DNA from: Planctomycetaceae bacterium
GTDB lineage: Bacteria > Planctomycetota > Phycisphaerae > SM23-33
DNA length: 16,048 bases
Assembly: GCA_021371965.1 (NCBI GenBank)
Contig: JAJFVE010000159.1
Location: forward strand, 1-16,048
Direction of reading: 5' to 3'
In this document: positions 1 through 16,048 of the stretch, piece by piece
How positions within the stretch are numbered: the stretch's first letter is position 1
How the letters are laid out: the number at the start of each line of letters is the position of its first letter
Made by a program: the position numbers and the translations under genes
The notes under the pieces: model-generated
The model's input: the letters and a program-made list of their open reading frames with translations, nothing else
What the model was told of the DNA's origin: nothing
Databases searched by the model: none

Positions 1-200
1 TTGTTGACGGCCGCCAGCAGGGCCGCTTCGTCCTCGAACCGCACGTCGGTCCGCGTGAGCTTGCCGCCGCGCTCGATGTAGACTTCGTCGAAGCGGTTGA
101 TCATGATCTCCGAGACCGTGTCGTCGTGCAGGAATCCTGCAATCGGCGCCAGGAAGTGTTCGACCGTCGCGGCAAAGATGTTGATTTTCTGCTCGGGCAT
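1..200 (-). CDS. CpaF/TadA-type secretion ATPase, N-terminal fragment
   Basis: The reverse strand encodes a protein that starts at an ATG ending at 200 and runs off the window, so only the first 66 residues are visible. Residues 29-46 read VSEIMIN..DEVYIERGG, the signature of the N-terminal domain of CpaF/TadA (type II/IV secretion, tight-adherence pilus) ATPases, followed by the usual 'KLTRTDVRF.DE..LL..VN' continuation. In the family this hexameric cytoplasmic ATPase powers assembly of Flp/Tad pili. The Walker motifs lie outside the window. The N-terminal extension before the signature is short compared with typical CpaF. The Shine-Dalgarno sequence is weak (GAGACG a few bases before ATG). 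Family assignment is fairly firm; the exact pilus system cannot be told from this fragment. Confidence 0.8.
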   Translation of the reverse strand, partial: MPEQKINIFAATVEHFLAPIAGFLHDDTVSEIMINRFDEVYIERGGKLTRTDVRFEDEAALLAAVN

Positions 201-363
201 CTTACGTCTCTTATCGGTGCGCGGCCGTGACCGCATTGAGGTTAACGCTCCGGAAACAAATTTATCACAAATCGAGGGAATATTTTCGCCGGTGGCTTGA
301 GTGTAGATGACGGTGCACGGTCAAACAAGGCACTTTCTCGTCGGCCTGGGAGAACGGGGAAGA

Positions 364-479
364 AACCGAGGACGAGGACGACGACGAGGACGATAAAAGC
401 ATTCAGCGACGATGTTAGCGGCGGGCTCGACCGCCAGAGCATGGTTGTTTCGTCCTCGTCGTCGTCCTCGTCGTCGGTT
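364..479. repeat. 30-bp inverted repeat (GAGGACGAC-type) in the 201-512 gap
   Basis: The 312-base gap between the Rieske oxidoreductase and the CpaF-like gene contains no credible gene. Its main content is two 30-base arms, 364-393 and 450-479, which are reverse complements with a single mismatch and are separated by 56 bases. The arms consist of GAGGAC/GACGAC triplet-like units. The loop includes a smaller GGCGG/CCGCC hairpin. A third, diverged copy of the right arm lies at 15348-15379. The pair could fold as a long stem downstream of the oxidoreductase (ends 513) and upstream of the ATPase (starts 200). It could be a REP/MITE-like dispersed element, a terminator or transcript stabiliser; no T-run follows it. 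Open frames across it give low-complexity Asp/Glu or Ser/Arg peptides and are not believed to be genes. Confidence 0.8.
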
Positions 480-512
480 GTCTCTCTCCCCTGAAATAAT
501 CCGGCACGATTC

Positions 513-2084: not shown

Positions 2085-2211
2085 ATTGGTCCCCAAAATA
2101 GCCTGGCATCTTCCGCCGGCCGGGTCTCTATCCAGTTTATTCGGTTGTTGTTCTTCTTTTTGATTTGGGCTTTTTAATGGTTCTTCCGGGAATACCGGGA
2201 AGTACTTGCTC

Positions 2212-2230
2212 TGCGTCCCGTTGGGACGCA
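2212..2230. other. Perfect 8-bp hairpin in the 2085-2287 gap
   Basis: TGCGTCCC (2212-2219) and GGGACGCA (2223-2230) form a perfect stem with a three-base loop. It sits just downstream of the site-2 protease gene (ends 2288) and upstream of the oxidoreductase. No T-run follows on either strand, so it is not a classical Rho-independent terminator; it may still end or protect the protease transcript. A second, weaker imperfect palindrome (CTTCC..GGAAG) lies at about 2183-2202. The rest of the gap is a T-rich/A-rich tract (about 2139-2177) without a gene. Confidence 0.5.
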
Positions 2231-2287
2231 TCCGAATTGATCGCTCGTGCACTCTCCCATTTATTCCCGCAATAGTTGTATTCTTCC

Positions 2288-3460
2288 TCACTCCTCCGGG
2301 GGTTCGACCTTCTTGATCTCTTCGTCGCTTTCCAGGGCCATTTTGGTCGAGAGGAACTTCAGCAGATCGCGCAGCGTGATAATGCCCACCAGAGCGCCAT
2401 GGTCGACCACCATCAGGCGGCTGGCCTGGGCCTGCGTCATGCGCGTCAGGGCGTGCATGGCATCTTCCTCGGGCGGGATGGTGTTCTCATCGCTGCACGG
2501 CTGCATGATCTCGCCGACGGTCTTCATGGGCCACTGCTCGCGCGGAACCTCGCGGACTTTCTGCGTGGTGACGCAGCCGCTCAGGTGCCCGTCCTCGACC
2601 ACCGGGAACATCTTGAAGTGGTATTGGAAGACCTTGTCCTCGACGAGGTCCTTGAGGTTCAGCGACGTCGGCACGGTCACCGGATCGGTGTTCATGAACC
2701 GCTTGAGCGGCTCGCCGTGAAGCATCTCGCGCACGAGGATCTGCTGGTAGCCCTGCTTGGCGGCGGACCGGACGAACAGGCCGATGATGATCCACCACAC
2801 CCCGCCGATGGCATTGCCGCCCAGCAGCAGCTCGAGGATCCCCAGGCCCACCAACAGCACGCCAAAGCCCATCCCCACCCGCGAGGCCACGTGCGTGGCC
2901 CAGCGCAGATCCTTCTTGGCCGCCCACAGCACGGCCCGCAGGACGCGCCCGCCGTCGAGCGGAAAGCCCGGAATCATGTTGAAAATCAGCAGGATGATGT
3001 TGATCAGCCCGATCCACTGCAGCACGCCGGTAACTTCGCCGGGCCAACCGGCGGCCGCCGACACCGCCGCCAGGATCATGAAGACGATCCCCAGCACGAG
3101 GCTGACAGCCGGCCCGGCCGCGGCGATGAGGCCTTCGGCAATGGGGCTGGGCGGTTCGTCGCTCATCTCGGCCACCCCGCCGAGCATGAACAGCGTGATG
3201 CCGGTCATCGGCAGTCCGAAACCCCGGGCCGCCAGCGAGTGGCACAGCTCGTGGATCACGATCGAGGCGAAGAGCCCCACCGAGGCCGCCAGCGCCATCG
3301 CCAGATAAGAGCCCCACGTCAGGCCGGGAAACTGAGATGGAAAGACCCCCGCACCCAGCGACCAGACCACCAGCACCAGGATCACCAGCCAGCTCAGGTC
3401 GATGCGGACGCTGAAACCGAAGATTGTGAATAGTTTTATCGAACGGTTAAGCATGAACAT
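2288..3460 (-). CDS. Site-2 protease (M50 family) with CBS domains
   Basis: This 390-residue polytopic membrane protein is an intramembrane zinc metalloprotease of the M50/site-2 protease family, group with C-terminal CBS domains. The zinc site is HELCH at 70-74 (His70, Glu71, His74), and the distal motif N161..P..PLDGGR supplies Asp169. Hydrophobic segments lie at about 22-40, 50-72, 85-95, 112-138, 148-168, 193-214 and 216-232. Two CBS domains follow at about 255-310 and 315-372, usually sensors of adenosyl nucleotides. Family members cleave membrane-bound regulators such as anti-sigma factors or signal-peptide remnants; no such substrate is adjacent. The start at 3460 has a GAGGGGG Shine-Dalgarno sequence about 7 bases upstream; an internal ATG two codons later is an alternative. 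The length is normal for the CBS-containing subfamily. Confidence 0.92.
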   Translation of the reverse strand: MFMLNRSIKLFTIFGFSVRIDLSWLVILVLVVWSLGAGVFPSQFPGLTWGSYLAMALAASVGLFASIVIHELCHSLAARGFGLPMTGITLFMLGGVAEMSDEPPSPIAEGLIAAAGPAVSLVLGIVFMILAAVSAAAGWPGEVTGVLQWIGLINIILLIFNMIPGFPLDGGRVLRAVLWAAKKDLRWATHVASRVGMGFGVLLVGLGILELLLGGNAIGGVWWIIIGLFVRSAAKQGYQQILVREMLHGEPLKRFMNTDPVTVPTSLNLKDLVEDKVFQYHFKMFPVVEDGHLSGCVTTQKVREVPREQWPMKTVGEIMQPCSDENTIPPEEDAMHALTRMTQAQASRLMVVDHGALVGIITLRDLLKFLSTKMALESDEEIKKVEPPEE

Positions 3461-3707
3461 TCCACTTCCCCCTCAGTCCGGCCGGTAATGATCACTGCGG
3501 CTTCAAGGCTCTGCATTCGCCTCTGGAAGTCTCCTTCAATTCTAGCCCCGCCTGTAGAGACGTGGGGAATGAACGCCGGGGGGAAGGCAGGCCGTGGCGG
3601 CTGTCGCTGCCGCCAGCCGCTGCAAACCACGACGAATGCGGGCACTCTTGTGGAAATGCCTCAGCCTTCGCCGGAGCGCCCCCTATGGCAAAACTAGAGA
3701 ACCCCGC

Positions 3708-3737
3708 TTGAACTTTTTTGACCGCCGGCGCTAGGAT
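3708..3737 (+). promoter_or_regulatory. Candidate sigma-70 promoter, possibly leaderless
   Basis: TTGAAC (3708-3713) and TAGGAT (3732-3737) are separated by 18 bases and each match the sigma-70 consensus at four of six positions. The -10 box ends five bases before the ATG at 3743, so transcription would begin at or next to the start codon. The AGGA inside the -10 box could equally be a Shine-Dalgarno sequence, in which case the real promoter is elsewhere. Confidence 0.35.
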
Positions 3738-3742
3738 TTCTC

Positions 3743-4144
3743 ATGTTCATGTGGGAAATCCTTCTCTCGTCGCTCCTGGCGGCCATTCTGAGCATGCTGC
3801 TGACGCTGGTGCTGGGGCGCCGCGGGCCCGGGCCGCTGATGGGATTCATCTTCTTCTACATCATGCTGTTTCTGGCGACGTGGGCCGGCGGATTGTGGCT
3901 GGGGCGAATCCGTCCCGGCGAGTGGCAGGTCAACTGGCTGGGATACGTCCTGGTGTCGGTAGTGCTGTGGTTGATCCTGGCCGCCGTGCTCCCGCGTCAG
4001 GGGCGAAAGCCCCGCCATGCCGACTCGGCCACGCTGCCGGTCGTCGAACCCCAGGCCACCCAGCAACTCGCCCTGGGAGTGCTGTTCTGGCTCTTGGTCG
4101 TCGTCCTGCTGATAATCATCGCCCTCAACTACTACACCTTCTGA
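3743..4144 (+). CDS. Small four-helix membrane protein, unknown function
   Basis: I do not recognise this 133-residue protein. It has four predicted membrane helices at about 5-25, 31-53, 65-84 and 109-130, linked by short basic loops (RRG at 26-28, RQGRKPRH at 85-92), and ends right after the last helix with NYYTF. There are no conserved catalytic residues or cysteines. It is divergent from the site-2 protease gene, with a 282-base region between, so shared regulation is possible. The region also holds a GC-rich hairpin with a 7-bp stem (TGGCGGC/GCCGCCA, 3595-3615). AGGA lies about seven bases before the ATG. Codon use and length argue that the frame is a real gene, but its role cannot be stated. 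Confidence 0.75.
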   Translation: MFMWEILLSSLLAAILSMLLTLVLGRRGPGPLMGFIFFYIMLFLATWAGGLWLGRIRPGEWQVNWLGYVLVSVVLWLILAAVLPRQGRKPRHADSATLPVVEPQATQQLALGVLFWLLVVVLLIIIALNYYTF

Positions 4145-4147
4145 CGA

Positions 4148-4285
4148 TTGGCTCTGACGATGGTCTCGCGGCCCGCACAAATCGCCGCTGAGCTCGAGGC
4201 CATCCACCGTGCCATCCGCCGCTGCCGGCACTGCCGCCTCCTGACGCCTCTATCCCAGATGCTCGAGCCGGATTCTTCGATTCTC
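4148..4285 (+). pseudogene. Possible remnant of a gene start (UDG-like Cys motif)
   Basis: The plus frame from about 4148 begins with a helix-like stretch, AELEAIHRAIRRCRHCRLL, that resembles the N-terminus of family 4 uracil-DNA glycosylases (a helix followed by C-x-x-C-x-L, part of their iron-sulfur site). After about 45 residues the resemblance stops where repeat-like sequence begins, and no GEGPG-type catalytic motif follows. If genuine, this is a gene truncated by rearrangement. The match is short and based on pattern memory only, so it may be chance. Confidence 0.2.
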
Positions 4286-4307
4286 GTTTCAAGACACATG
4301 TGGCGAC

Positions 4308-4337
4308 GTCCTTCGACTCGCTCCGCTCGCTCAGGAC
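4308..4337. repeat. CCTTCGAC...CTCAGG-type dispersed palindrome
   Basis: A 30-base sequence is bounded by GTCCT (4308-4312) and AGGAC (4333-4337), with CGACTCGCTCCGCTCGCTC between them. Palindromes starting CCTTCGAC and ending GCTCAGG are widespread intergenic repeats in many bacterial genomes. Only one copy is visible here, so its repetitive nature is inferred from its form, not from a second copy in the window. Confidence 0.5.
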
Positions 4338-4371
4338 TCGCCCCCGGCTATTCCCGGAAGAATCATAGAAA

Positions 4372-4393
4372 AGGCACCGGAAAACCGGTGCCT
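4372..4393 (-). terminator. Hairpin, candidate terminator of the ferredoxin operon
   Basis: AGGCACCGG (4372-4380) and CCGGTGCCT (4385-4393) form a perfect 9-bp stem with a four-base loop. Read on the minus strand the stem is followed by a short T-run (TTTTC), as in a Rho-independent terminator; on the plus strand no T-run follows. It would end transcripts of the HicB-like/sigma/ferredoxin operon about 290 bases after the ferredoxin stop. The T-run is short and the hairpin lies among repeats, so it could instead be a mobile palindrome. Confidence 0.45.
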
Positions 4394-4683
4394 GGACTTT
4401 GCCTTCTACCGCCTCGACATCTTTATTATAGTGACTGGACAGCCCTTCAAGAGAATCCTGGTGCGGCGGAAAATTCTTTCGCTCTGTCGCTGCGGGAAGA
4501 TGCGAATTTTCGCCCAAAGGCGAAATATTCTTCTTTTGCAGGACATCTGGTTTATGAAACTCTCCCAAGAGCATTTGCAGAGCGAGCGTCCCCGTTGCGG
4601 CAGAGCAGTTCACCAAACCCGCTGTGAAAAGTACAACAAAGTGCAAGGAAGACAACGCGCCGGCGATGGGAGGCTGCGGCGTT

Positions 4684-4872
4684 CTACTCTTCGATGTGGA
4701 TCGCGTCGACGGGGCAGCTTTCGGCGGCCTCGGTGGTCTTGGCTCGCAGTTCGGAAGGGACGGGGTCTACGATGGGCTTGGCGAAACCGTCCTCACCCAT
4801 CTGGAAGACTTCCGGGCAGATGTCCACGCACAGTTCGCAGCCGATGCAGGTTTCGTCGACGATGGCTTTCAT
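4684..4872 (-). CDS. Small [4Fe-4S] ferredoxin
   Basis: This 62-residue protein is a single-cluster ferredoxin of the Thermotoga/Desulfovibrio type. Cluster ligands are most likely Cys9, Cys12 and Cys15 (CIGCELC) plus Cys53 in SCPVDAI. Cys19 (in DICP) matches a cysteine that forms a disulfide in the Thermotoga protein, but its partner cysteine is missing here. The second cluster of clostridial ferredoxins is absent. It is a soluble cytoplasmic low-potential electron carrier. It is the last gene of a minus-strand operon, 33 bases after the sigma-factor stop codon. The ATG at 4872 is the only start after the in-frame stop; the Shine-Dalgarno sequence is poor (AGGCGG at 11 bases), which suggests coupling to upstream translation. 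Confidence 0.92.
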   Translation of the reverse strand: MKAIVDETCIGCELCVDICPEVFQMGEDGFAKPIVDPVPSELRAKTTEAAESCPVDAIHIEE

Positions 4873-4905
4873 CTTGTTCTCGGCCGCCTGTGCGGTCTTC
4901 CCCCC

Positions 4906-5943
4906 TTAGACCGCCAGGCTGCCCTCCAGAGCATATCGGATCTTCGACAGCGAACTCTTCTCGATCTGCCGCACGCGTTCCAGCGACAGTCCGAGCGTCT
5001 TGCCGATCTGCATGAGCGTTCGCGGCTGATCGTCGTCGGACATCCCGAAGCGTTCCTGGATGACGGTGCGCTCGATGTCGCTCAAAGCGGCATGGTTTTT
5101 CAGCAGCACCTGCCGCACGACGTCGATGGCGTCGGTGCGCTGCTGTTCGTGGCGTTGCTCGATAAAGTCGCTGCGTTCGAGTTCCGGGTCGAACTGCACG
5201 GGGCAGTATTTGTGCCGCGTGCGGGCTTTGCTGGCCAGGCGCGAGAAGCAGGCCAGGATCGAGCGGCAGGCATAGGTCGAGAACTTGAACCCGCGCGAGA
5301 CGTCGAACTTCTCGACGCTGCGGAGCACGGCCATGTAGCCCTCGGAGATCAGGTCGCCGAACTCGACGCCGGTATGGGTGGCGCGTTGGGCCATCGCCGG
5401 AACCAGCGGCAGATTGGCGTGGACGATCTTGCGGTGGGCGTCCTGGGCGCGGTGGCGCCACAGGCCCCACTGCTGGGCCTGCGTGCGGCTTCGCGTGAGC
5501 TTGGACATGCGGTACTTGGCGTAGTTGTATCGCATGAACAGCAGTTTTTCCTCGTGGGTTCGCAGGGAAGGGCGGCTTTGCGGCTGCTCAGGGACGTCGT
5601 CGAGCACCTGTGGGAGCAGGCGGTAGTTGGGCACGTCGATGGAAGCCGACGCCGGTCCCCAGAGGCGCTCTTCCGCACCGGGCAGGGAGTAGCTGCGGTG
5701 ATGGACGTGGTCCAGGCTGGGAAGATCCATTTCCATTCGGGCCAGCCAGTCCTTGTCGAGGGACTTGTTGCAGCACGAGGCCGCCTCAGCCCGGCGGCGG
5801 GATGTCACGATTGCTTTGACCACGTTCCTGTCCTTGCCGGCTCCGTGGGCGGGGCCTCTGGCGTTTGAGGAAGTCTTCCATCCGCCGGCACGGGCAGATC
5901 GGGCCGCGGCGGCGCGTTTCAAATGCGAGTCGGTTGTTTTCAT
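4906..5943 (-). CDS. Atypical sigma-70 family RNA polymerase sigma factor
   Basis: The 345-residue protein carries sigma-70 region 2 at about 167-238 (ANLPLV, then EFGDLISEGYMAVLRSVEKFD, then FKFSTYA) and region 4 at about 285-340, with the helix-turn-helix QIGKTLGLSLERVRQIE near 312-328. Between them a recognisable region 3.0 is missing. In region 2.3 the usual STYATWWIRQAI becomes STYACRSILACF, so the two tryptophans that help melt the -10 element are absent. The first 130 residues are basic, low in recognisable motifs and resemble no region 1.1. It would direct core RNA polymerase to a special promoter set. The ATG at 5943 has GGAAGG six bases upstream. It lies 15 bases after the HicB-like gene and 33 before the ferredoxin gene, an evident operon. 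No anti-sigma factor is adjacent unless the HicB-like protein serves as one. Confidence 0.88.
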   Translation of the reverse strand: MKTTDSHLKRAAAARSARAGGWKTSSNARGPAHGAGKDRNVVKAIVTSRRRAEAASCCNKSLDKDWLARMEMDLPSLDHVHHRSYSLPGAEERLWGPASASIDVPNYRLLPQVLDDVPEQPQSRPSLRTHEEKLLFMRYNYAKYRMSKLTRSRTQAQQWGLWRHRAQDAHRKIVHANLPLVPAMAQRATHTGVEFGDLISEGYMAVLRSVEKFDVSRGFKFSTYACRSILACFSRLASKARTRHKYCPVQFDPELERSDFIEQRHEQQRTDAIDVVRQVLLKNHAALSDIERTVIQERFGMSDDDQPRTLMQIGKTLGLSLERVRQIEKSSLSKIRYALEGSLAV

Positions 5944-5958
5944 GAGGGACCTTCCGAA

Positions 5959-6225
5959 TCAGGCAATGCACATCGAACGATGCTCCTGTCCGGCCAGGTC
6001 CGCATGCAGTGTCAGGACATTTCCAGCAGATACCCTGGCCTGGCGGCGAGCCAATTCCCTGGGCAGAGCCACGTCCATCGTGGCCAGGTATCCGCGAACG
6101 GCTGAGCGTATCTTGGTGGAGGCCTCCTGTCGGGTGAGGCCTAAGACGCGGCAGCCCGGTAGAGCGGGGCACCATGCTTTGAACGTCCCGTCGGCTTGGG
6201 CAGCCATCCTGACGACCAAATTCAT
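5959..6225 (-). CDS. HicB-like domain protein without HicA
   Basis: An 88-residue protein matches the HicB-like fold: residues 12-24 (DGTFKAWCPALPG) followed by GLTRQEASTKIRSAVRGYL at 29-47, the typical strand-CPxLPGC-strand-TxxEAxxxIxxAIxGYL order. HicB proteins are usually antitoxins that bind the HicA mRNA interferase. Here no HicA-like frame is seen on either side, and the C-terminal 28 residues do not form the helix-turn-helix or ribbon-helix-helix seen in DNA-binding HicB. The start at 6225 is chosen because AGAGGA lies eight bases upstream; longer frames begin with isoleucine-rich junk. The stop is only 15 bases before the sigma-factor ATG, so the two are probably co-transcribed. An orphan regulator or adaptor role is likelier than a classical toxin-antitoxin role. 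Confidence 0.75.
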   Translation of the reverse strand: MNLVVRMAAQADGTFKAWCPALPGCRVLGLTRQEASTKIRSAVRGYLATMDVALPRELARRQARVSAGNVLTLHADLAGQEHRSMCIA

Positions 6226-6563
6226 CGCACACATCCTCTGAATAATGATGATGACGGATCGGGCCACCACGTTGGCTGGCTCGCTTGCTTCAATTGTGGC
6301 ATCAGCGGCAAGGCTTTCAATCGGTGCTGTTACCGCTTTGTGGCAGGCAGATACTTCCAGAGGGACTAAGAAAAGTACCTACAAAAGCAGGAAACAGGAG
6401 CTGGTGGGGAAACCAGTAGCCGGTGAAGAACGCGCGATAGCATGCTCTGCGCAATGGTTCCTGGATTGAGTCGAGCGAGATCTGCCTGTCTTCCACGGGC
6501 TACCGGCTACCGGCTACTGATCACTGCTTCTATCTGGCTACCGGCGACTGATCACTGCTTCTA
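6226..6563. other. Gap upstream of the HicB-like operon
   Basis: The 338 bases between the HicB-like start and the response-regulator stop hold no convincing gene. The small plus-strand frames here have no recognisable motif, and none is HicA-like. Visible features are an 11-bp inverted repeat (CAGTAGCCGGT at 6414-6424 against ACCGGCTACTG at 6509-6519) and a direct repeat at the right edge (6505-6565). The promoter of the HicB-like/sigma/ferredoxin operon should lie here on the minus strand, but I found no convincing -35/-10 pair. Confidence 0.5.
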
Positions 6564-6565
6564 TC
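6505..6565. repeat. Two-copy 30-base direct repeat, period 31
   Basis: GGCTACCGGC(T/G)ACTGATCACTGCTTCTATC occurs at 6505-6534 and again at 6536-6565 with a single difference. The first copy is preceded by another partial GGCTACC unit (6498-6504). The second copy overlaps the stop codon of the response regulator gene (6564-6566). It is a recent tandem duplication or part of a dispersed repeat. Confidence 0.85.
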
Positions 6566-7256
6566 AGCATTCCTGGTACTGCACCCAGTGGATCGCCTGG
6601 CGGAGCAGGCGCGAGGCGCTAGCGCACTTGAGCTTGTCCTTGATGTTCTCGCGGTGCGAATCGACCGTCTTGGAGCTGATGTGCAGGCGCTGGGCGATCT
6701 CGCGCGTCGGCAGACCGTTGCCGATGAGCTCGAAGATCTCCAGTTCCCGGTCCGTCAGGGAGTCCATGAGGTTGCGGCCGCTGCCGCTGCCGGAGGCGTA
6801 AACCCCGGCGAAACGGCTGAGCACTTTGGAGGACATCTGGCCGCTGATGTAGATATTTCCCCGCAGCACGGTGCGGATTCCTTCGACGACGTTGGCGGGG
6901 TTTTCCTCTTTGGTGATATAGCCCATCGCCCCGCATCGCAGGACGCGTTCGGCGTAAAGCGCCTCCTCGCGCATCGACAGCACGAGCATGCGCAGGTTGG
7001 GAAACTGCGTGGCAGCCTGGCGGATAACGTCGAGCCCGCTGCTGTCCTTGAGACTCAGGTCGATCAGAGCGACGTCGGGCTTCTCCGCGGCCATCAGCGC
7101 CAGGGCGTCGGCGGCGTTGTCCGTTTCGCCGCAGATACACAGGTCGCTCTCGCGTTCGACCACCATCTTGATGCCTTGCCGCACGATGGGATGATCTTCC
7201 ACGAGCAGAATTTTGCTTTTCTTCACGCTGACTCGTATCTTTTCCGACTTGTCCAT
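6564..7256 (-). CDS. NarL/FixJ-type response regulator
   Basis: A 230-residue two-component response regulator. The receiver domain (about 15-132) has the acidic pair Glu20-Asp21, the phosphoacceptor Asp66 (VALIDLS), Ser94 in place of Thr, and Lys116 (YITKEE). A LuxR-type helix-turn-helix domain spans about 165-225 (LTDRELEIFELIGNGLPTREIA..LHISSKTVDSH). Phosphorylation by a sensor kinase would alter DNA binding. No histidine kinase gene is in the window, so it is an orphan here. The start at 7256 (MDKSEK) is preferred because the receiver domain follows shortly after; the longer frame to 7331 adds 25 residues without family resemblance, and neither start has a strong Shine-Dalgarno sequence. 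The gene is divergent from the baeRF-like gene, and its stop lies inside a tandem repeat. Confidence 0.9.
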   Translation of the reverse strand: MDKSEKIRVSVKKSKILLVEDHPIVRQGIKMVVERESDLCICGETDNAADALALMAAEKPDVALIDLSLKDSSGLDVIRQAATQFPNLRMLVLSMREEALYAERVLRCGAMGYITKEENPANVVEGIRTVLRGNIYISGQMSSKVLSRFAGVYASGSGSGRNLMDSLTDRELEIFELIGNGLPTREIAQRLHISSKTVDSHRENIKDKLKCASASRLLRQAIHWVQYQEC

Positions 7257-7358
7257 AGCCCAAACCCGCATCTTAAGGAACCCCGAAAACCTGAACTTGC
7301 GGAATGATAACACGCTTTGCCGGAAGTGCACTATAAAAAACTGCCCGCCCGCGTAATG

Positions 7359-7479
7359 CCTCAGTCATGGGGGGAAAGTCGTGCCGTACGGTATCTGGGC
7401 CAAGCATTCATCGACGCCTGCAAGACGGCGTTGATAAATACTCGGTGCCTCCGCCGCGACTTCCCCCCTGGAACTGAGG
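7359..7479 (+). promoter_or_regulatory. Long-range stem-loop upstream of the baeRF-like gene
   Basis: CCTCAGT (7359-7365) pairs with ACTGAGG (7473-7479), GGGGGG (7369-7374) with CCCCCC (7463-7468), and AAGTCG with CGACTT just inside, giving about 19 base pairs with a small internal loop and one bulged A. The 75-base interior holds a CCGTACGG palindrome and an ACGCC/GGCGT hairpin. The stem ends 94 bases before the ATG at 7574, inside the 317-base divergent gap with the response regulator. As part of the baeRF transcript it would be a structured 5' leader. It could also be a DNA-level element or a dispersed repeat. The remainder of the gap shows no gene. Confidence 0.5.
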
Positions 7480-7561
7480 GGATACCCGCCCGCGACGCGC
7501 ATATAGTGAATGAGGGAGACACGGTCAGGTTCATGCAGCCACGCTTGTGCCGGCAATAAGT

Positions 7562-7567
7562 AGGAGG
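7562..7567 (+). promoter_or_regulatory. Perfect AGGAGG ribosome binding site
   Basis: AGGAGG lies six bases before the ATG at 7574. It decides the start of the baeRF-like gene over the upstream in-frame ATG at 7547 and is the strongest Shine-Dalgarno sequence in the window, pointing to efficient translation. Confidence 0.85.
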
Positions 7568-7573
7568 CGTCTC

Positions 7574-8761
7574 ATGGCCGAGCAAATCACCAAGGCTCGC
7601 ATCCGCGAGCTGATGTCACAGACTGATCCGATGAATGTTTCCATCTTCATGTCGATGCACCCGTTTGGGCCCCAAAAGCAGGAAGACTCGCTGAGGCTCA
7701 AGAACCTGCTGGACAAGGCCCGGGATCGCCTGATAGCGATGGGCGTTGCGGGCGCGCGGGCGCAGCAGCGAGTCGACGCCGTCGCCTCGCGCATCGATGC
7801 CGGGCGAATCTGGCAAAATCAGTGCCACGGCCTGGCGGTCTATCTTGGACCCAAGCACGATTACGTCTTTCAGTTGCCCCTGGCGCCGCGCGAAATGGTG
7901 GTCGTGGGGCCTCGATTCCATATCAAGCCGCTCCTGGCGGCCTTGGCCCTGGTGGGACGCTTCTACGTTCTGGCTTTAAGTTCCAACCAGGTGCGTCTGT
8001 ACGAGGCCGACCCGAAGGGCATGCGGGTCATCGAGACGGCGGCCCTGCCGCGCGACTACGACGAGGCCACGCGGTTCAACCAGTTCCAGCGCCAAGTGAG
8101 CTTCCACACCCGCACGTCCGCGCACGGCGCCGGTTCGAGGCGGCCGGCGATGTTCCACTCCCAGGGCGGCGGCGATGAGGCCGACAGGAAAAGGTACCTT
8201 CTCGACTTCTGCCACATGGTCGACGCCGGCGTGCAGAGCGTACTGGCCGGCCAGACCGTCCCGCTGGTGCTGGCGGCCTGCGAGCCGCTGGCGGGCATCT
8301 TCCGCCAGTGCTGCAGCTACCGCTTCCTCTACAGCCACATCGTCGAGGGCAACCCGGAGTTGCTTTCACCTGAGGACCTGCACCACCTGGCGATGAAGGC
8401 GCTGGGCGATCATTTCCTGCTGGCGATGCGCCGCGACGGCGACCTCTACCGCCAACTGGCCACCAAGGGCCACGCATCGAGCAACATCGAGGAAATTCTC
8501 GCAGCCGCCACATACGGGCGGGTCGAGGCAATGTTCGTCTCGGCTGGGGATCACTGCTGGGGCCGCTACGACGGTCAGACCGGCACGGCAGAGATCCACC
8601 CTGTCCAGCAGGAGGGCGACGAAGACCTGTTCGACCTGGCGGCCGCACGGGCATTTGAAAATGGCGGAACCGTCCACGTCGTCTCTCGAGGCGAGGTGCC
8701 CGACTCCGCCGCCATCGCCGCGACGTTCCGCTACGCGCTGTCCCGCGCCGAGGCGGGGTGA
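7574..8761 (+). CDS. baeRF family-7-like release-factor homologue
   Basis: The 395-residue protein resembles the bacterial archaeo-eukaryotic release factor (baeRF) proteins, especially family 7. Typical features are VSIFMSMHPFGPQ..DSLRLKNLLDKA (22-49), WQNQCHGLAVYLGP (80-93), VVVGPRFHIKPLL (109-121), FYVLALSSNQVRLYE (130-144), a glycine-rich loop HSQGGGDEADRK (195-206) at the place of the GGQ-like loop, and a C-terminal eRF1-domain-3-like part with GRVEAMFV (315-322) and GDEDLFDLAA (348-357). By analogy with eRF1/Dom34, the family is thought to act on ribosomes, perhaps rescuing or modulating stalled ones; the reaction is not established. It is convergent with the PQQ protein gene, only 13 bases between stops. 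The start is fixed by AGGAGG. Family membership is fairly sure; activity is inference. Confidence 0.85.
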   Translation: MAEQITKARIRELMSQTDPMNVSIFMSMHPFGPQKQEDSLRLKNLLDKARDRLIAMGVAGARAQQRVDAVASRIDAGRIWQNQCHGLAVYLGPKHDYVFQLPLAPREMVVVGPRFHIKPLLAALALVGRFYVLALSSNQVRLYEADPKGMRVIETAALPRDYDEATRFNQFQRQVSFHTRTSAHGAGSRRPAMFHSQGGGDEADRKRYLLDFCHMVDAGVQSVLAGQTVPLVLAACEPLAGIFRQCCSYRFLYSHIVEGNPELLSPEDLHHLAMKALGDHFLLAMRRDGDLYRQLATKGHASSNIEEILAAATYGRVEAMFVSAGDHCWGRYDGQTGTAEIHPVQQEGDEDLFDLAAARAFENGGTVHVVSRGEVPDSAAIAATFRYALSRAEAG

Positions 8762-8774
8762 ACGGTGTTCCGCG

Positions 8775-11700
8775 TCATCGACCAAGTGCAAAGACGTGCA
8801 CGCCCGAGCGGTCGGCGATGACGATGGCGTGGTCGAGGATTCTGGCCTGGGCGTCGTGGTCCCAGCGGTACGACTGGCTGCACGCTGCGCCGCTCAGTTC
8901 GCTGCGGGCGACGTGGCGGGCCGTGGCGGCATCGAACACGTCCACGTACATCCGCGGGTCGATCGTCGCCCACTTGATATTCATGTCCTTGCGGTCGCGG
9001 CGGTGCAGGTACTTGCCCTTGAGACCCGACACCACGACCATCTTGTCGCCGACGAGGCGGAAGTCGTAGATGGCGTGCAAGGTGTTCTCCGGTCCGGCGG
9101 GCAGGTTGTAGACCGTCTCCTTACGCTTGGCCGGGTCGAAGCGGAACAGTTGCCCGTAGAACCGCAGGTACGCCGCGTCGGGCGCCGAGCGCAGGCCCAG
9201 GCACCAGGGGTACATCTCCGTGATGCGCGGGTCGGCCCCGCGCCGCCACGCGCCGGTGACGCCCGGGTCGCCCGCGGACGGGCGGTACTTCGCCCGCATC
9301 GCCGCGTTGATGTAGCACGCGCCGGCCGGGCTCAGCGCCGAGCACTCGGGCCAGTTCACCAGGTCGTCCAGCAGCGGCGAGATCTGCTGCACGCTCCCGC
9401 CGGCGGCGTCGACCGCCACGTCGGCCACCTGCCAGGTTCCGCCGTCGCTGCCGAAGGCCGCACTGAGGAACAGGTGCAGCCGCCCCTGCCCATCGCCCCC
9501 GCGGGCGAACCACATGCCCAGCAGCCCTTGGCGCGAGCGGAAACGCATCGGGTCGCTGAACGGGCGCGACCAGAGCACCTTGCCCGTGCCGGCATCGATG
9601 GCCGCGGCGAAAGGTTCCCAACTGTTGCCCAGCTTCCACGGGCAGGTGGCGGCCGCCACCAGCGAGTCGTCGCCGTCGATCTGGTACGGGCAGAACGGCA
9701 GTCTGGCCGACCACTGCAGCGCCCCGCCCTCAAGGTCCAGGGCGGTCAGATCGCTGCCGCTGCGGAGCACCATGCGTCGGCCGACGATGCTGCCCCCGCC
9801 AGCGGCGGCCGGGAGGAACTGCTGCCAGGCGACCTTGACCTGCCCGCGCAGTTGCAGGCAGGCCGCTTGCCGCCCCACCAGCACGCCCAGGGCCTCTGCG
9901 TTGCGGTCCTGCGGCGGCGCGACGAGGATCGGGTTCTCGCACGGCAGAGTCCAGATTTCCTTGATCGCCGCCGGCGCGGCGAAAATCTCTGGGCCCTCGG
10001 CGATGGCGGCGGCCGGGCCGGCGGCAAGGGTAGGCCCGGCCACTTCGGCCAGCGAACCGTCGGGCAAGATCGCGTGCTGCCAGAGGCCGCTGGTGTTCAG
10101 GTCTCGCTGCTCGAGCGTCTTGCCCGTCTGGGCGTGCAGGCGATGGGCCGTGGGGCCGCTGACGAGGACAACTTCGCCGCCGACGACGGCCGCCTGCGAG
10201 CCGGTTCCCTGCTCGAAATTGCGGCACCACAGCACGCGCCCGGTGGCGATGTCCATCCCGGCCAGCCATTGGGAATTGACGCCCACCAGCGCAGCGCCAC
10301 ACACGCCGGCCAGCGCGTCGGAGGGAACCAGCAGCGTTTCCCAGATCAGCTTGCCGCTGTCGCGCTGCAGCGCCAGCACGCCGCTGTGATCTCGCGGGGC
10401 CACCAGCACCGTCTCGCCCACGATGATCGGCGCGGCGCCCTCGCGCGACGCCCCGCCGGCGGCGCCGGCGTAACCGCTGAGCCATTCCACCGTGCCGTCG
10501 AGAGCGTCGCAACGGGCCACCACCCCCAGGTTCGTCGCGCAGTACACCGAGCCCTGGTGCACCGAGATGCCGCACGCCCCGCCGCCGGATTCAAAATCGC
10601 TGCGGTCGCCGCCGCCGATGGCCTGCTTCCAAAGCGTGTGGCCGCTACGGCCGTCCATGCACACCAGCGCCAGCGCGGGCGAGTCGCCCCCGCCCTGCAC
10701 TGCCAGCACGTACACGCGCCCCTCGGCGGCTGTGGGCTCGCTCAGGGGCGTCAGGTCTTTCCAGTCGCCGTCGGCCGCGGTGGTCCAGAGCGTCTTTCCG
10801 CTGCGGGCGTCGCAGGCCTCGATCAGCGGCTTCCTGCCCCCGACGAGCCTGTAGAACGCCCGCGCGGCGGCCAGGCCCAAGGCCACGTCGGTCAACGCCG
10901 ACGACGCGGGCCCGCGCACGGCGATGGGGCGCGGAGTTTCCCGCCGCCACCACCGCGGCGTGCCGGCAAAGACCACGCTCTGCTCCTGCGGCGTGTCCGG
11001 CCCGGGCGCCTCCCACGGCGGGGAGTGGACCCAGAGGCTCTTGCCGCCCGCGGCGTCGAAGCGGGCCGCCTTCGCGCCCGACACCAGCAGCGCCGCGGCG
11101 TCGGCCTGGATCATGTCCAGCGGACCAGCGGCGCCCTCGCGGCCAACGGCCCACAGCGGCGGCAACTCGAGGCGCCGCCGGACCAGTGACGCCAGCGCGA
11201 CAGGCCGCTCGCCCGCCCCTGCTGCCGCCGACAGGATCGCCTGCTTGATCTTCCCCGCCGGCGCCTTGCCGCCCCGCCAGGGCAGCGGCTCGTCGTCGGC
11301 CACTGCCGCCATCGCCGCGTCGATCTGCCAGCGCGGAGCGTCTTCCTGGACCAGCGTCAGCCACAGCCCCACGCGGGCGCACGCACGCAGATCGGCGCCG
11401 GCCGCGTGACGCAGCACGTCGCCATAGGCCGCAAACGCCTCCTGCCGCCGCCCGGTGCGGAGCGAGTGCTCGGCGAAATCCAGCAGCGCCGCATGCACGC
11501 TGGCGGCCCAGGGGTACTTCTTGGCCAGGCGGCTCAGGTCGTGCCCGTCGCCGCTGTCGCGCACCTGCCGGGCCAGGTTGCATGCGGCCTGTTCCTGCAT
11601 GGCCCGCAGCGCCGCCAGCGCCGCCGGCGGGAGTTTGCACAGCGCCTGGTCTGCCGCGGCGCGATAGGAGATGTAGTGCGTGTCGCTGACGCGCAGCAGC

Positions 11701-12602
11701 AGGCCGCTCTGGGCGCCCATGTCCGCCACGCGAGACAGCTCGTCAGCCTTGGCGGGGGCGTCTTCCTGCTCGCGGATGTGGCTGGCGGCTTCCCACCGCA
11801 TTTCCATGTCGACGTTGCGGGGCACGCGGATGGCCGGGCCGGGCAGCACCCGCGCCATGCCCTTCGAGGGGTCCTGGGACTTGTCGTAATACGCCGCCGC
11901 CTGCTCGGCGTGCCCCATCGCCGTCAGCAGGTCGCCCGCGGCCGCGTACGCGCGAGGGCACTGCGGGCCAATGCGGGCGACGGCCTTGAAGAACGCGGGG
12001 AAGGCGTCGTATCGCGGCCGGGCCGCCAGCGCAGAAGCCATCCGCTGCAGCGCCGCGACGACGACCGGATGGTCGTTGGGGATGCCTGCGGCCTCGTTGA
12101 GGTCGAGGATCTCCTGCATGACGAAGGCCCAGTCCATCGCCGAGGGGTTCTTGACGGCGTCCTGGAAGGGCTGATCGATGATGTCGGCGTAGGCCGCCGC
12201 CACCAGCTCTTTGCGCTGCGGGAACTCCTTGATCAGCGCGTAGAGATAGTAGGACCGCCACCACATGCTGCCGGCCTGGGCGTGCGCGTCGGCGATCTGG
12301 CGGTAGGCGTCGGCGTGCTTTTCGCGGTCGGCCGGCGATTTGAACCGCACGATCATCGCTTTGAGCAGCGTGATCTTGCGCAGCGCCTGGGCGCGTGAGG
12401 CGCCAGCCGCAGCCGCCTTGTCGCGCCCCGCCTTCACCGGCTCGCCGACGGGATTAGCCGCCAGCGTCTGCTCCCATGTGTCGCGCCAGGCGATCGGCGG
12501 CCCGGCCCACTCCGGCGGCAGATAGTCCACCACCCGCGCCTGCGGCGGCCCCTGCCCCGCGGCGGTGGCCGCAAACAACAATATGAGAGCCAATTTCCGC
12601 AT
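8775..12602 (-). CDS. Large exported PQQ-like beta-propeller protein
   Basis: A 1275-residue protein with a probable signal peptide (MRKLALILLFAATAAGQ), an alpha-helical, TPR-like N-terminal half (about 60-480) and a PQQ/quinoprotein-type propeller. The propeller blades show the GxxxW end motif repeatedly: GKSLW (520), GKTLW (602), GHTLW (654), GTVEW (703), GKLIW (750), GRVLW (788) and GKVLW (1007). The regularity fades toward the C-terminus. Such proteins are usually periplasmic or envelope scaffolds; a bound quinone or dehydrogenase activity cannot be claimed, since catalytic residues of PQQ dehydrogenases are not evident. It follows the lipoprotein genes by 80 bases on the same strand and may belong to their operon. 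The start at 12602 has only a distant GGGGG (12 bases). A long plus-strand frame opposite (8655-11189) is a GC-composition shadow. Confidence 0.88.
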   Translation of the reverse strand: MRKLALILLFAATAAGQGPPQARVVDYLPPEWAGPPIAWRDTWEQTLAANPVGEPVKAGRDKAAAAGASRAQALRKITLLKAMIVRFKSPADREKHADAYRQIADAHAQAGSMWWRSYYLYALIKEFPQRKELVAAAYADIIDQPFQDAVKNPSAMDWAFVMQEILDLNEAAGIPNDHPVVVAALQRMASALAARPRYDAFPAFFKAVARIGPQCPRAYAAAGDLLTAMGHAEQAAAYYDKSQDPSKGMARVLPGPAIRVPRNVDMEMRWEAASHIREQEDAPAKADELSRVADMGAQSGLLLRVSDTHYISYRAAADQALCKLPPAALAALRAMQEQAACNLARQVRDSGDGHDLSRLAKKYPWAASVHAALLDFAEHSLRTGRRQEAFAAYGDVLRHAAGADLRACARVGLWLTLVQEDAPRWQIDAAMAAVADDEPLPWRGGKAPAGKIKQAILSAAAGAGERPVALASLVRRRLELPPLWAVGREGAAGPLDMIQADAAALLVSGAKAARFDAAGGKSLWVHSPPWEAPGPDTPQEQSVVFAGTPRWWRRETPRPIAVRGPASSALTDVALGLAAARAFYRLVGGRKPLIEACDARSGKTLWTTAADGDWKDLTPLSEPTAAEGRVYVLAVQGGGDSPALALVCMDGRSGHTLWKQAIGGGDRSDFESGGGACGISVHQGSVYCATNLGVVARCDALDGTVEWLSGYAGAAGGASREGAAPIIVGETVLVAPRDHSGVLALQRDSGKLIWETLLVPSDALAGVCGAALVGVNSQWLAGMDIATGRVLWCRNFEQGTGSQAAVVGGEVVLVSGPTAHRLHAQTGKTLEQRDLNTSGLWQHAILPDGSLAEVAGPTLAAGPAAAIAEGPEIFAAPAAIKEIWTLPCENPILVAPPQDRNAEALGVLVGRQAACLQLRGQVKVAWQQFLPAAAGGGSIVGRRMVLRSGSDLTALDLEGGALQWSARLPFCPYQIDGDDSLVAAATCPWKLGNSWEPFAAAIDAGTGKVLWSRPFSDPMRFRSRQGLLGMWFARGGDGQGRLHLFLSAAFGSDGGTWQVADVAVDAAGGSVQQISPLLDDLVNWPECSALSPAGACYINAAMRAKYRPSAGDPGVTGAWRRGADPRITEMYPWCLGLRSAPDAAYLRFYGQLFRFDPAKRKETVYNLPAGPENTLHAIYDFRLVGDKMVVVSGLKGKYLHRRDRKDMNIKWATIDPRMYVDVFDAATARHVARSELSGAACSQSYRWDHDAQARILDHAIVIADRSGVHVFALGR

Positions 12603-12682
12603 CCACGTTCATAACCCCCGCCCGCTGATCGCGGAGCGGCAATTCGCCATAGCACGGGCCGTCCCGTCGGCAGAGAAGAACT

Positions 12683-14173
12683 TCACGGCAGCACTGCCAT
12701 CGCTTCGGCAATTACGGGCAAGGCCGCACTTGAGTGGGGAATCAGCACCCCGTGGAAGGAGTAGCCCTGCCGCCGCGAAAGACCCGTCGCATCGACAAAC
12801 GCCACACGCCGCGGTTCCTGCGTCGCCGGCTGGACCTTGACGGTCACGACGTTAGAGATGAGTTTGCCCTTCCACGCCCACGCCGGCCAGGCGTTGTCGA
12901 ACTCGGGTGGCTGTTTCTGGGTCGATGGGATGCCCTGCATCTGGGGGAAGTACGCCCGCCAGGTGTCGCGGGCATGCTGTACTTGAGGGTCTGGGGCCTG
13001 CGGGTAGAATCCGGGATGGATGGGGAACTCGGCCCAGACTTCGGCCGACTCGCTTGCCGAAATCGCGTTCCAGATGGTCTGAGGGTCGCCGTCGGCGACA
13101 TTATCGCTACGTAGCGTGAACGTCCGGCCCAAAGTCGCACCGGGCTTGATCTCCAGTGGACTGTGCACATGCAGGCTTCTGATATCGACCGGCCTGTCGA
13201 TGAAGAATACGAACGTCTGCCCGGAAGCAGCCTTCACTCGCACGCCCACGTACGACGGCCAATCAATCTGGCCGCACAGACACACAGGCACCACTCTCCG
13301 CTGGGCGGCTTCAGAGATCACTTCCACCTTGAGCGCCACGTCTTCCCACCGCGACCAGACCTTCTTTTCGCACGAGAGCTTGAGCCTCAGCCGATTGATA
13401 CACTCGCCCGCCGCCGGCGTCGTAGCGGGCATCGTCGTCGACGTGTTCGCCCGTCCATAGGTCGTGTACTCGGGCTTAAGCTCGATGTAGATGACATCCG
13501 GGATCGCCGCGACGGAGGGCAATTGCGTCTTTTCGATGTCGATCATCAGACGATCGTGCTCCACAGTGGCCTTGATCCCCTGCTTTTCCAACTGGGACTT
13601 CACGCCATCGAGGTTCGCACGGGCAAAGACCATAAACGGCCGACATTCGTGCTGGGCCGGGGGCCTTCCGGTAAGGCCTGGCAGGGAGTCATTCGGGAAA
13701 TCCGGGATGCCTTCAGCGTAGAGCTTCAAGATACCGGGGGTGAGTTTGTATAGAGGCTGAAAGATATAGACCTTGGCCACATACGGCAGGCGCTCGATCT
13801 GCGTTCTCTTTGCCGGATCGATCTTGAGCAGCGTGTCGTCGCTTTGGAATCCGCTAATGACCGCGGCGCCCAGCGCCTGGATCTGCGTATACCATTCGCG
13901 TTTCCCGCTTTCTTTGAACTGAACGATGTAATAGCCGGTGTCTTTGTCGGTAATGAAAGATGCCAGATCGTCCCTCGACATCTTGCGGTAATACTCGCCG
14001 TTGGTTTTCACGCAAAACGGATAAAGGCCACGGATCAGATCATCGGCGGTTTCCCGCGTGGTCGGCTGGGACGCAGGTCTTGTGGCTGGCGACTTGCGGC
14101 ACCCCTCGACGGCCGCACCCGCCGTCGCGGCCAGCACGATCGCGCATATTGAGATGATATTTCTTCGTTTCAT
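12683..14173 (-). CDS. Lipoprotein: S8-propeptide-like plus Ig/BsuPI-like domain
   Basis: A 496-residue exported protein, probably a lipoprotein (signal segment 1-24, Cys25 in VEGC, an imperfect lipobox with Glu at -2). Residues 80-148 (YYIVQFKESGKREWY..., LGAAVISGF, ERLPYVAKVYIFQPLYKL) and 180-237 (FMVFARANLDGVKSQLEKQG..., IPDVIYIELKP) resemble the two-part N-terminal region that precedes the catalytic domain in certain S8 (subtilisin-like) proteases. No Asp/His/Ser protease domain follows. Instead residues 259-450 form a beta-rich module similar to the upstream lipoprotein's second domain: LRLKL..K..W..WEDVALKVEV, CLCG at 298-301, EIKPG at 341-345 and W-K-G-K-L-I-S-N at 434-441. The ATG overlaps the previous gene's stop (ATGA), and AGGTGG precedes it, so the two are translationally coupled. 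Protease control is a guess; family unnamed. Confidence 0.8.
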   Translation of the reverse strand: MKRRNIISICAIVLAATAGAAVEGCRKSPATRPASQPTTRETADDLIRGLYPFCVKTNGEYYRKMSRDDLASFITDKDTGYYIVQFKESGKREWYTQIQALGAAVISGFQSDDTLLKIDPAKRTQIERLPYVAKVYIFQPLYKLTPGILKLYAEGIPDFPNDSLPGLTGRPPAQHECRPFMVFARANLDGVKSQLEKQGIKATVEHDRLMIDIEKTQLPSVAAIPDVIYIELKPEYTTYGRANTSTTMPATTPAAGECINRLRLKLSCEKKVWSRWEDVALKVEVISEAAQRRVVPVCLCGQIDWPSYVGVRVKAASGQTFVFFIDRPVDIRSLHVHSPLEIKPGATLGRTFTLRSDNVADGDPQTIWNAISASESAEVWAEFPIHPGFYPQAPDPQVQHARDTWRAYFPQMQGIPSTQKQPPEFDNAWPAWAWKGKLISNVVTVKVQPATQEPRRVAFVDATGLSRRQGYSFHGVLIPHSSAALPVIAEAMAVLP

Positions 14174-15261
14174 TTTCCACCTGCCACCGTGATCCGTAGG
14201 CTGTTGGAGTCAATCTCGCCGCTCCAGACGTTCGCCTTGGCATCGGGGGCGATGTGGTACTTGAACACCACGTCGTGGAGTCCAGCCTTGAGGGTGATGG
14301 GCTCGCCGCTATATGGCGCGTCTTGATAGTAAAGGCCCTCGCGCGGGACCTCGAGGGTCGTGCGAAAGACCTGGCCGGGTTCCAGTTCGATGTGGCTGGT
14401 GTCGCGCCAGGGATCGCAGGCGCGAGCGTGCTGTGCCCCGATGGGCAGTAGCGTCCGCCCGCCCTTGTCGCGTATCGTGAAGCCTCCGAAGCAACCGCAC
14501 TGGCAGACTCCCAAGCGAAACATCATGGCCTTACCCAATACGTTGCGAAACTCCGCCTGCACGGTAATCGGCTCCCCTTCACGATAGACATCCTGCGCGG
14601 CTGCAATCCCGAGCTCCAAGCCGTTGACGACGGTGCCGGCCGGCTTGGGCGCAATCGTGATCTTGATCGTGTTGGACAGGACCGGGCTGGAGAGGACTGA
14701 CCCACCGGCCGGGAGATCATTGAGCTCATCCTCTCGGGTGGAGGTCATCCTGTTCTGGCGAAACCGCTGGAAGTACTCGCGCGTCAGCGACTCCAGACGC
14801 AACGCCAGAGAATACTGTCCCGCAGCCAACTCTGGGTTGAACCACGCCGGATGGAGTTCCATACGGCCAGTGCGCGAAGATTTCCTATCGATGTTAAAGA
14901 ACGCCGAGCGAGGCTGCATTGCCACAGCAAGTTGGGGGCCGCCGTAGGAGTACAGCGTGCCCTTGGAGTCAGTCATCTCCAAGCTCAAGCCTGAACCAGG
15001 GTAGCTGATCCTGGAACTATCAAAGACAACGACCTTAAGCTCATCTCCCGTGTTCTCCAGGCGCGTTTCCAGAACAATAGGCTGGCCCAGTTCCAGGACC
15101 TCCTTTTGAGATCGGATCGTGAGACGGATGCCCTCGGCCGCCTGCCCGCTCTTCGGCCAAGCTGGTTCACTCGCCGCCTGCGTCGCCGGCGCGGCGGGGG
15201 CGGGCCGGTTGCCTTGACATCCGGCGGCCGCGAGAGCTATCACCAGCAGCATGTATCGCAT
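14170..15261 (-). CDS. Lipoprotein with two Ig/BsuPI-like beta-sandwich domains
   Basis: A 363-residue predicted lipoprotein: signal MRYMLLVIALAAAGC with lipobox AAGC and lipidated Cys15, then a Pro/Ala linker (to about 42). Domain 1 (45-205) starts IRLTIRSQKEVLELGQPIVL..RLENTG and ends SNTIKITIAP. Domain 2 (213-360) starts LELGIAAAQDVYREGEPITVQAEFRN, contains CQCGC (253-257), IELEPGQ (291-297) and WSGEIDSNSLRITV (346-359). This order resembles BsuPI-like (intracellular proteinase inhibitor) or other Ig-like sandwiches, but the match is by pattern only. It should sit in the envelope, anchored in a membrane. The start at 15261 has AAGGAAA seven bases upstream. The stop overlaps the next gene's ATG, and domain 2 is homologous to that gene's C-terminal part. 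Function unknown. Confidence 0.8.
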   Translation of the reverse strand: MRYMLLVIALAAAGCQGNRPAPAAPATQAASEPAWPKSGQAAEGIRLTIRSQKEVLELGQPIVLETRLENTGDELKVVVFDSSRISYPGSGLSLEMTDSKGTLYSYGGPQLAVAMQPRSAFFNIDRKSSRTGRMELHPAWFNPELAAGQYSLALRLESLTREYFQRFRQNRMTSTREDELNDLPAGGSVLSSPVLSNTIKITIAPKPAGTVVNGLELGIAAAQDVYREGEPITVQAEFRNVLGKAMMFRLGVCQCGCFGGFTIRDKGGRTLLPIGAQHARACDPWRDTSHIELEPGQVFRTTLEVPREGLYYQDAPYSGEPITLKAGLHDVVFKYHIAPDAKANVWSGEIDSNSLRITVAGGK

Positions 15262-15347
15262 TGCGAACTTTCCTTCTTCCGTGTTGTTGGACGCACTGAA
15301 CTGGAATTGGTTCCGAGGCGCGATGCGATCTTGCGGATTTGTATCGT

Positions 15348-15379
15348 TTTCGTCCTCATCGTCGTCATCGTCGTCGATT
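15348..15379. repeat. Third copy of the GAGGACGAC-type element
   Basis: This 32-base stretch matches 448-479, the right arm of the inverted repeat near the left end, at 29 of 32 positions; all three differences are G or C in that arm against A here. It lies in the divergent gap (15262-15448) between the lipoprotein and sulfatase genes. Flanking sequence is unrelated, so the match is confined to the element. Low-complexity triplets could arise independently, but the shared TTTCGTCCTC start and TT end argue for common origin. Confidence 0.65.
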
Positions 15380-15413
15380 TACCGGTTTCCCGCTGGTGTG
15401 CCAGAGCTCGCCA

Positions 15414-15442
15414 TTGACGGCATTTCGTTACTTCGTCAAAAT
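15414..15442 (+). promoter_or_regulatory. Candidate sigma-70 promoter of the sulfatase, leaderless
   Basis: TTGACG (15414-15419, five of six consensus bases) and CAAAAT (15437-15442, four of six) are 17 bases apart, the ideal spacing. The -10 box ends six bases before the ATG at 15449, so the transcript would start at the start codon. No Shine-Dalgarno sequence is seen before this ATG, which fits leaderless translation. Confidence 0.45.
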
Positions 15443-15448
15443 GCCCGC

Positions 15449-16048
15449 ATGCGTAACCCAACTGATCGACCGAACATTATTCTGATCAACTGCGACGACC
15501 TGGGCTATGGCGACTTGAGCTGCTACGGCTCGTCTGTCAATCGCACGCCGGTGCTGGACTCGATGGCGGCCGCCGGCGTGCGGTTCACCGACTTCTACAT
15601 GGCCAGCCCCGTCTGCTCGCCCTCGCGCGGGGCGATGATGACGGGCTGCTACCCGCGGCGGATCGGCTTTGGCACCTTCGACGGGGCGTGGGTGCTGTTC
15701 CCCGGCCAGGGCGTCGGGCTCAACCCCTCCGAGATCACGATGGCCACGCTGCTGCGGCGGCAGGGCTACGCGACGTACCACATCGGCAAGTGGCACTGCG
15801 GCGACCAGAAGGAGTTCCTCCCCACGCGGCACGGGTTCGACTCGTACTTCGGCATCCCCTACAGCAACGACTTGGGCTGGCAGGTCGGCGGCAACAACCC
15901 CTGGCCGCCCTTGCCACTGATGCGCGACGAAGAAGTCATCCAGGCCCAGCCCGATCAGCCCAACCTCATCGAGCGCTACACCGAGCGTGCCGTCGGCTTC
16001 ATCCGCGACAACCGCGAGAAGCCCTTCTTCCTGTACCTGGCGCACATG
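15449..16048 (+). CDS. Type I sulfatase, N-terminal fragment
   Basis: The first 200 residues of a formylglycine-dependent sulfatase; the gene runs off the window. The start reads RPNIILINCDDLGYGDLSCYG, with Asp16-Asp17 as calcium ligands. The active-site signature is CSPSR at 56-60 within the C-x-P-x-R motif, where Cys56 would be converted to formylglycine by a sulfatase-modifying enzyme. IGKWHCG at 112-118 supplies the catalytic Lys114 and His116. Such enzymes hydrolyse sulfate esters, often of algal or host polysaccharides, and are abundant in planctomycetes. No signal peptide is visible: the protein begins MRNPTDRPNIIL directly, which suggests either a cytoplasmic enzyme or a start further upstream, though a frame check finds no better start. 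Another ATG at 15441 is in a different frame and ends quickly. Substrate cannot be told. Confidence 0.93.
   Translation, partial: MRNPTDRPNIILINCDDLGYGDLSCYGSSVNRTPVLDSMAAAGVRFTDFYMASPVCSPSRGAMMTGCYPRRIGFGTFDGAWVLFPGQGVGLNPSEITMATLLRRQGYATYHIGKWHCGDQKEFLPTRHGFDSYFGIPYSNDLGWQVGGNNPWPPLPLMRDEEVIQAQPDQPNLIERYTERAVGFIRDNREKPFFLYLAHM

Follow-up and report, generated by a model that had tools for sequence, protein, structure and literature searches.

A pair of overlapping genes on a stretch of 16,048 nucleotides from a Planctomycetaceae bacterium of the class Phycisphaerae (contig JAJFVE010000159.1, positions 1 to 16,048; hereafter 'the window') encodes a predicted exported protein, P0001, and a predicted lipoprotein, P0002. 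P0001 combines two predicted folds of the subtilase-propeptide type with an immunoglobulin-like (Ig-like) module, and its chain contains no S8 catalytic domain. A protease-less double propeptide fold in an exported protein suggests a surface-held binder or inhibitor of proteases. We propose, tentatively and with a little less than even confidence, that the two I9-type folds of P0001 form a tandem subtilase propeptide which, exported, probably lipid-anchored and joined to the Ig-like module, binds and inhibits S8 proteases at the cell surface.

Homology and predicted fold of the tandem region

The homology of the first unit to the N-termini of S8 proteases emerges from 397 genomes of the class, which were searched both with P0001 and with a profile of S8 N-termini. 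P0001 has matches in 57 of these genomes at E ≤ 0.1 (the best at E 2.6e-7, with 37% identity); the 22 strongest rows all fall within its residues 71-176, 21 of them in open reading frames (ORFs) of 663-1532 amino acids, and no convincing match besides S8 N-termini was obtained in the set. Twenty loci were retrieved and 19 kept, L102 being dropped as matched elsewhere; within a set of 51 ORFs, all 19 match P0001 at E 3.9e-6 or better. The aligned region extends from the YIVQF motif up to where the S8 domain begins, and Peptidase_S8 is present in each of the three full-length ORFs tested among these loci.

Against a profile built from the 19 N-termini, unit 1 (residues 82-150) scores 45.1 bits (best of 2000 shuffles, 4.3), a value somewhat inflated because the 19 were chosen for their likeness to P0001. 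Unit 2 alone reaches 4.5 bits (i-E-value 4.4), which exceeds the best shuffle (3.4) yet is weak; it is, however, collinear with the S8 N-termini and predicted as a second copy of the propeptide fold. An earlier note, made from the sequence alone, had pointed to two S8-like segments: the first is borne out by its profile score, the second by collinearity and modelling rather than by score. Its broader reading, a protease-propeptide-like region without a protease, is upheld for residues ~79-235, where profile, alignment, structure prediction and Foldseek comparison support two folds of the subtilase-propeptide type and no catalytic domain follows; the propeptide core is well modelled by AlphaFold, and the fold lies in a closed ORF, with no S8 match in P0001.

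No Pfam family matches P0001 at E up to 10, Inhibitor_I9 (PF05922) and S8 included. Since 35 S8 N-terminal pieces likewise lack a PF05922 match, this result does not separate P0001 from S8 propeptide regions. The S8 N-terminal profile finds 106 of the 397 genomes at E ≤ 0.001; in the window's own order it matches none of 38 genomes at E ≤ 0.01, and PF05922 none of the 38 either. Phycisphaerae S8 proteases (loci L083-L101 and L123-L160) share an N-terminal tandem propeptide-type region unmatched by Pfam.

Protease-free copies of the tandem region were sought in two ways. Among the matches listed for the profile, all nine rows with an open frame below 660 amino acids were inspected, together with a 690-amino-acid frame and a stop-broken frame. 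S8-type sequence follows the tandem region in 9 of these 11 regions, two of them broken genes (L154, L220) read as separate pieces; L155 and L159 are cut by contig ends, 13 residues past unit 1 and 11 residues into an apparent S8 start, respectively. A protein search with the tandem region, in which 7997 candidates of ~137-437 amino acids were scored, gave four matches: three are S8-type (Pfam S8 just under its cut-off; S8 motifs by eye; what seems to be the broken S8 gene of L154), and one lies on a contig of 724 bases, too short to tell.

Wider searches returned little. Neither protein yielded anything usable in sequence searches of Pfam, NCBIfam and PDB, and in a single-sequence search of 5.8 billion proteins, which scores only candidates sharing words with the query (for P0001, the 7996 sharing most), each protein retrieved only itself. 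P0001 gave 12 stretches but no relatives in genome_contigs and no match among plasmids and phages; neither protein had one among viral contigs. Two weak matches of P0001 (E 0.21 and 0.26) were dismissed as ORFs without visible relation. The note had named occurrence of the pair in this genome only as a refuting outcome, and as far as searched (the 5.8 billion proteins, genome_contigs and the 397 class genomes for P0001, and the closest relative, G079) the pair does occur in this genome only; the case for a conserved system is weaker for it, but the structural reading is not.

Ig-like modules, export signals and the site of the gene pair

The C-terminal modules of the two proteins are related, as had been claimed: residues ~251-460 of P0001 and 206-363 of P0002 give a Smith-Waterman score of 61, reached by none of 1000 shuffles (best 49). 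The first and second modules of P0002 score 49 against each other (0/1000; best 47), and the P0001 module scores 36 against the first module of P0002, which is not significant (61/1000). The predicted structure of the second P0002 module is Ig-like. Its structural neighbours include BsuPI/IPI (3ISY), with AsaP1, RbmA, Spo0M and arrestins matching about equally well or better; the suspected BsuPI likeness is at most one of fold. Pfam BsuPI (PF12690) matches neither P0001 nor P0002, whose only Pfam match is DUF6049 (E 0.098, under its cut-off). The module is common in the window's order, within ORFs of many sizes, and the family has no Pfam match above cut-off. P0002 matches 56 of the 397 class genomes at E ≤ 0.1, mostly through weak or signal-peptide matches; some matches lead to the Ig-like module family.

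Read by eye, both proteins begin with an export signal containing a hydrophobic stretch and a nearby cysteine. That of P0002 ends in AAGC (C15) and is lipobox-compatible; the P0001 candidate, VEGC (C25), departs from the usual pattern at -2. On this reading, the export signals near a cysteine that the note saw stand for both, with a possible, atypical lipobox in P0001, which is probably lipid-anchored.

The coordinates given for the pair and its ATGA overlap are confirmed by minus-strand ORFs at 15261-14170 and 14173-12683 (Table 1). Both genes look coding: their codon scores are +0.15 (P0001) and +0.07 (P0002), whereas the two alternative frames of the same strand score between -0.66 and -0.82. 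These scores lie below those of the neighbours (0.35-0.58 for the six genes used to train the score, 0.42 for a sulfatase gene outside the training set), and the G+C content at third codon positions is 0.75 and 0.74, compared with 0.81-0.92 in the neighbours. Neither a telling promoter nor a terminator was found around the pair.

The closest genome met, G079, belongs to the window's order and aligns with it in four pieces between positions 4676 and 12648 (81-89% DNA identity). Contig C44 of G079 begins with the TPR/PQQ gene, and contig C6 with the sulfatase gene (93% identity from window position 15402). Beyond the shared DNA, C44 encodes a transposase C-terminus that shares 53% identity across 32 residues with an annotated IS630-family transposase and has no Pfam or NCBIfam match; C6 carries a reading frame that we take to be an IS630-type N-terminus. 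These ends lie at C44:1-209 (L205) and C6:1-193 (L208), and the 22-base repeat AACGGCCGCCATGGCACCCGGC occurs at both. No terminal repeats marking a transposon are evident around the pair. Read most simply, the site is variable, occupied by the pair here and by an insertion sequence (IS) in G079; gain here and loss in G079 are indistinguishable, with codon use leaning towards gain. Short 27-base GAC/GAN-rich repeats occur at window positions 368, 449 and 15349-15375. Window 15343-15379 has 10 listed counterparts in G079 (88-91%), and two copies face each other at window 368/449 and in L215.

Table 1. Positions of the gene pair, its parts and adjoining features in the window
Feature	Positions	Strand	Description or basis
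P0002 gene	14170..15261	-	363 amino acids; predicted lipoprotein, two Ig-like modules
P0002 first Ig-like module, residues 40-206	14644..15144	-	sequence likeness to second module
P0002 second Ig-like module, residues 206-363, motifs C-x-C-G and W-x-G-x-I-x-SN	14173..14646	-	structure prediction
ATGA shared by the two genes	14170..14173	-	ORF coordinates
P0001 gene	12683..14173	-	496 amino acids; predicted exported; tandem propeptide folds and Ig-like module, S8 catalytic domain absent
P0001 export signal, possible lipobox VEGC (C25), atypical	14099..14173	-	read by eye
P0001 propeptide-fold unit 1, residues 79-147	13733..13939	-	predicted fold and profile match
P0001 propeptide-fold unit 2, residues 176-235	13469..13648	-	predicted fold
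P0001 tail YIELKPEYTTY, residues 229-239	13457..13489	-	compared with BPN' propeptide tail by motif
P0001 C-terminal Ig-like module, residues 255-455	12809..13411	-	match to P0002 second module; predicted local distance difference test (pLDDT) mostly <50
TPR and PQQ-type beta-propeller gene	8775..12602	-	1275 amino acids; 80 bp downstream of P0001; signal peptide read by eye
Segment with the gene pair, no long match in G079	12649..15401		DNA comparison

On the other side of the pair lies the sulfatase gene, oriented away. The TPR/PQQ protein has many paralogues: G079 contains 16 stretches that match it, of which one reaches 79% identity and the rest 34-49%, and genome G146 contains 14; some of the stretches fall in one ORF. 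Further off, the window encodes a baeRF-type protein (7547-8761, plus strand), whose top NCBIfam match is a ribosome hibernation factor family, under its cut-off, and a Sigma-70-type factor (4906-5943, minus strand), whose best relatives are mostly Phycisphaerae. Upstream of the latter, a 103-amino-acid protein (5959-6270, minus strand) shows weak HicB likeness (E 0.07), and its relatives are present at 6 of 80 sigma-factor loci.

Proposed action and its alternatives

Beyond these observations, we infer membrane anchoring, docking, inhibition and a target protease. Unit 2 of P0001 would dock on an S8 protease, its strand-4 tail inserting in the substrate cleft in propeptide fashion, while unit 1 would steady unit 2; the Ig-like modules of both P0001 and its co-translated partner, the lipoprotein P0002, may act as spacers or partner-binding domains. 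The P0001 tail equals that of the BPN' propeptide (YVEEDHVAHAY) in length and last residue, the two being aligned by motif rather than from a complex. The BPN' propeptide sequence used matches 1SPB_P in full, and its residue numbers were counted by hand. In that propeptide, Glu69 and Asp71 are helix-capping residues (PMC6993865). E231 of P0001 stands at the Glu69 position, in a column that is acidic in 33 of 35 S8 rows.

A number of results weigh against this proposal. The Asp71 position is Lys in P0001, and several conserved positions differ from the same 35 S8 rows: 133 (A, with R in 33), 134 (K, with W in 27), 139 (Q, with H in 30), 232 (L, with R in 24) and 233 (K, with W in 24). The tail block 231-240 is modelled at low confidence (pLDDT 66), and the tail is not free, being followed by a Thr-rich linker and then the Ig-like module. 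The AlphaFold input alignment was made from S8 N-termini and so biased towards a propeptide-like outcome. Foldseek E-values are weak (best propeptide row 0.039; probabilities 0.99-1.00), and in pairwise alignment neither unit matches the BPN' propeptide significantly, nor do the units match each other. P0001 is the sole protease-free case of the tandem region among the matches listed, so that conservation offers no argument for a function. Nor was an S8 gene seen in the window or, at E ≤ 1e-5, matched in G079, where P0001 was not found and P0002 had matches only at E 0.2 or worse, an assembly gap being possible.

Because S8 matches are lacking in G079, the target is at least as likely to be an exogenous protease as one of the organism's own. 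A more specific and, in our view, unlikely version is that P0001 is a bacterial free tandem propeptide serving as a surface protease trap at a variable, IS-prone site: a foreign subtilase would dock, cut the tail after Tyr239 and stay blocked by the bound propeptide, and the Ig-like module, freed by the cut, would serve as signal or decoy.

The main rival to a protease binder or inhibitor, which we regard as a serious if doubtful contender, is a domesticated remnant, i.e. an S8 gene that lost its catalytic domain and whose N-terminus was joined to an Ig-like module, yielding a binding or structural envelope protein that binds something else and inhibits nothing. The loss of conserved residues in both units speaks for it, as do the lack of a second protease-free copy among the matches listed, the IS630-type ends at the differing site in G079 and the frequency of the Ig-like module in ORFs of many sizes, whereas the intact ORF with its coding-like codon use, the well-modelled propeptide core and the retained acidic capping residue speak against it. 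It is quite improbable that P0001 is a folding helper acting in trans, chaperoning an S8 protease encoded elsewhere without its own propeptide, even though subtilase propeptides assist folding as well as inhibit (PMC10580911 and PMC6993865). No S8 gene for such a role was seen in the window or matched in G079, and a diffusible helper would not usually carry a lipid anchor and an Ig-like fusion. Slightly less probable still is a coincidence of fold, with another ferredoxin-like double domain (e.g. ACT-like) in an unremarkable lipoprotein: ferredoxin-like folds are common, and the first Foldseek row is 2FGC (E 0.028), the small subunit of acetolactate synthase, an ACT-domain protein, but the BRCT and ACT likenesses of the region were set aside because propeptides score higher in structure.

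Comparison with known systems

Should P0001 indeed inhibit proteases at the surface, this tandem, envelope-held form would mean that propeptides are separable from their proteases in bacteria too, and it would offer surface control of, or defence against, subtilases in a directly testable form. The analysis also points to a Pfam-unmatched tandem propeptide-type region heading many Phycisphaerae S8 proteases. With that region (profile A1) P0001 is homologous over unit 1 and collinear over unit 2; it differs in lacking the S8 catalytic domain and in its altered R, W and H positions. Compared with subtilase propeptides (MEROPS I9; BPN' 1SPB_P, subtilisin E 1SCJ_B), P0001 is tandem, protease-free, exported in the lipoprotein manner, fused to an Ig-like module and without a Pfam match. 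To BsuPI/IPI of Bacillus subtilis (PF12690, 3ISY) the likeness is at most one of fold, without a Pfam match, and other proteins match about as well or better.

In a limited check of the open literature on propeptide inhibitors and BsuPI, no bacterial stand-alone propeptide lipoprotein was noticed. The stand-alone propeptide-like inhibitors named in PMC6993865 are all eukaryotic: Pleurotus POIA1, the yeast peptidase B inhibitor, Arabidopsis SPI-1, Toxoplasma TgMIC5 and Plasmodium SUB1-ProM. Stand-alone propeptide mimics are already known (PMC6993865); the bacterial, tandem, lipoprotein-type and Ig-fused form represented by P0001 appears to be new.
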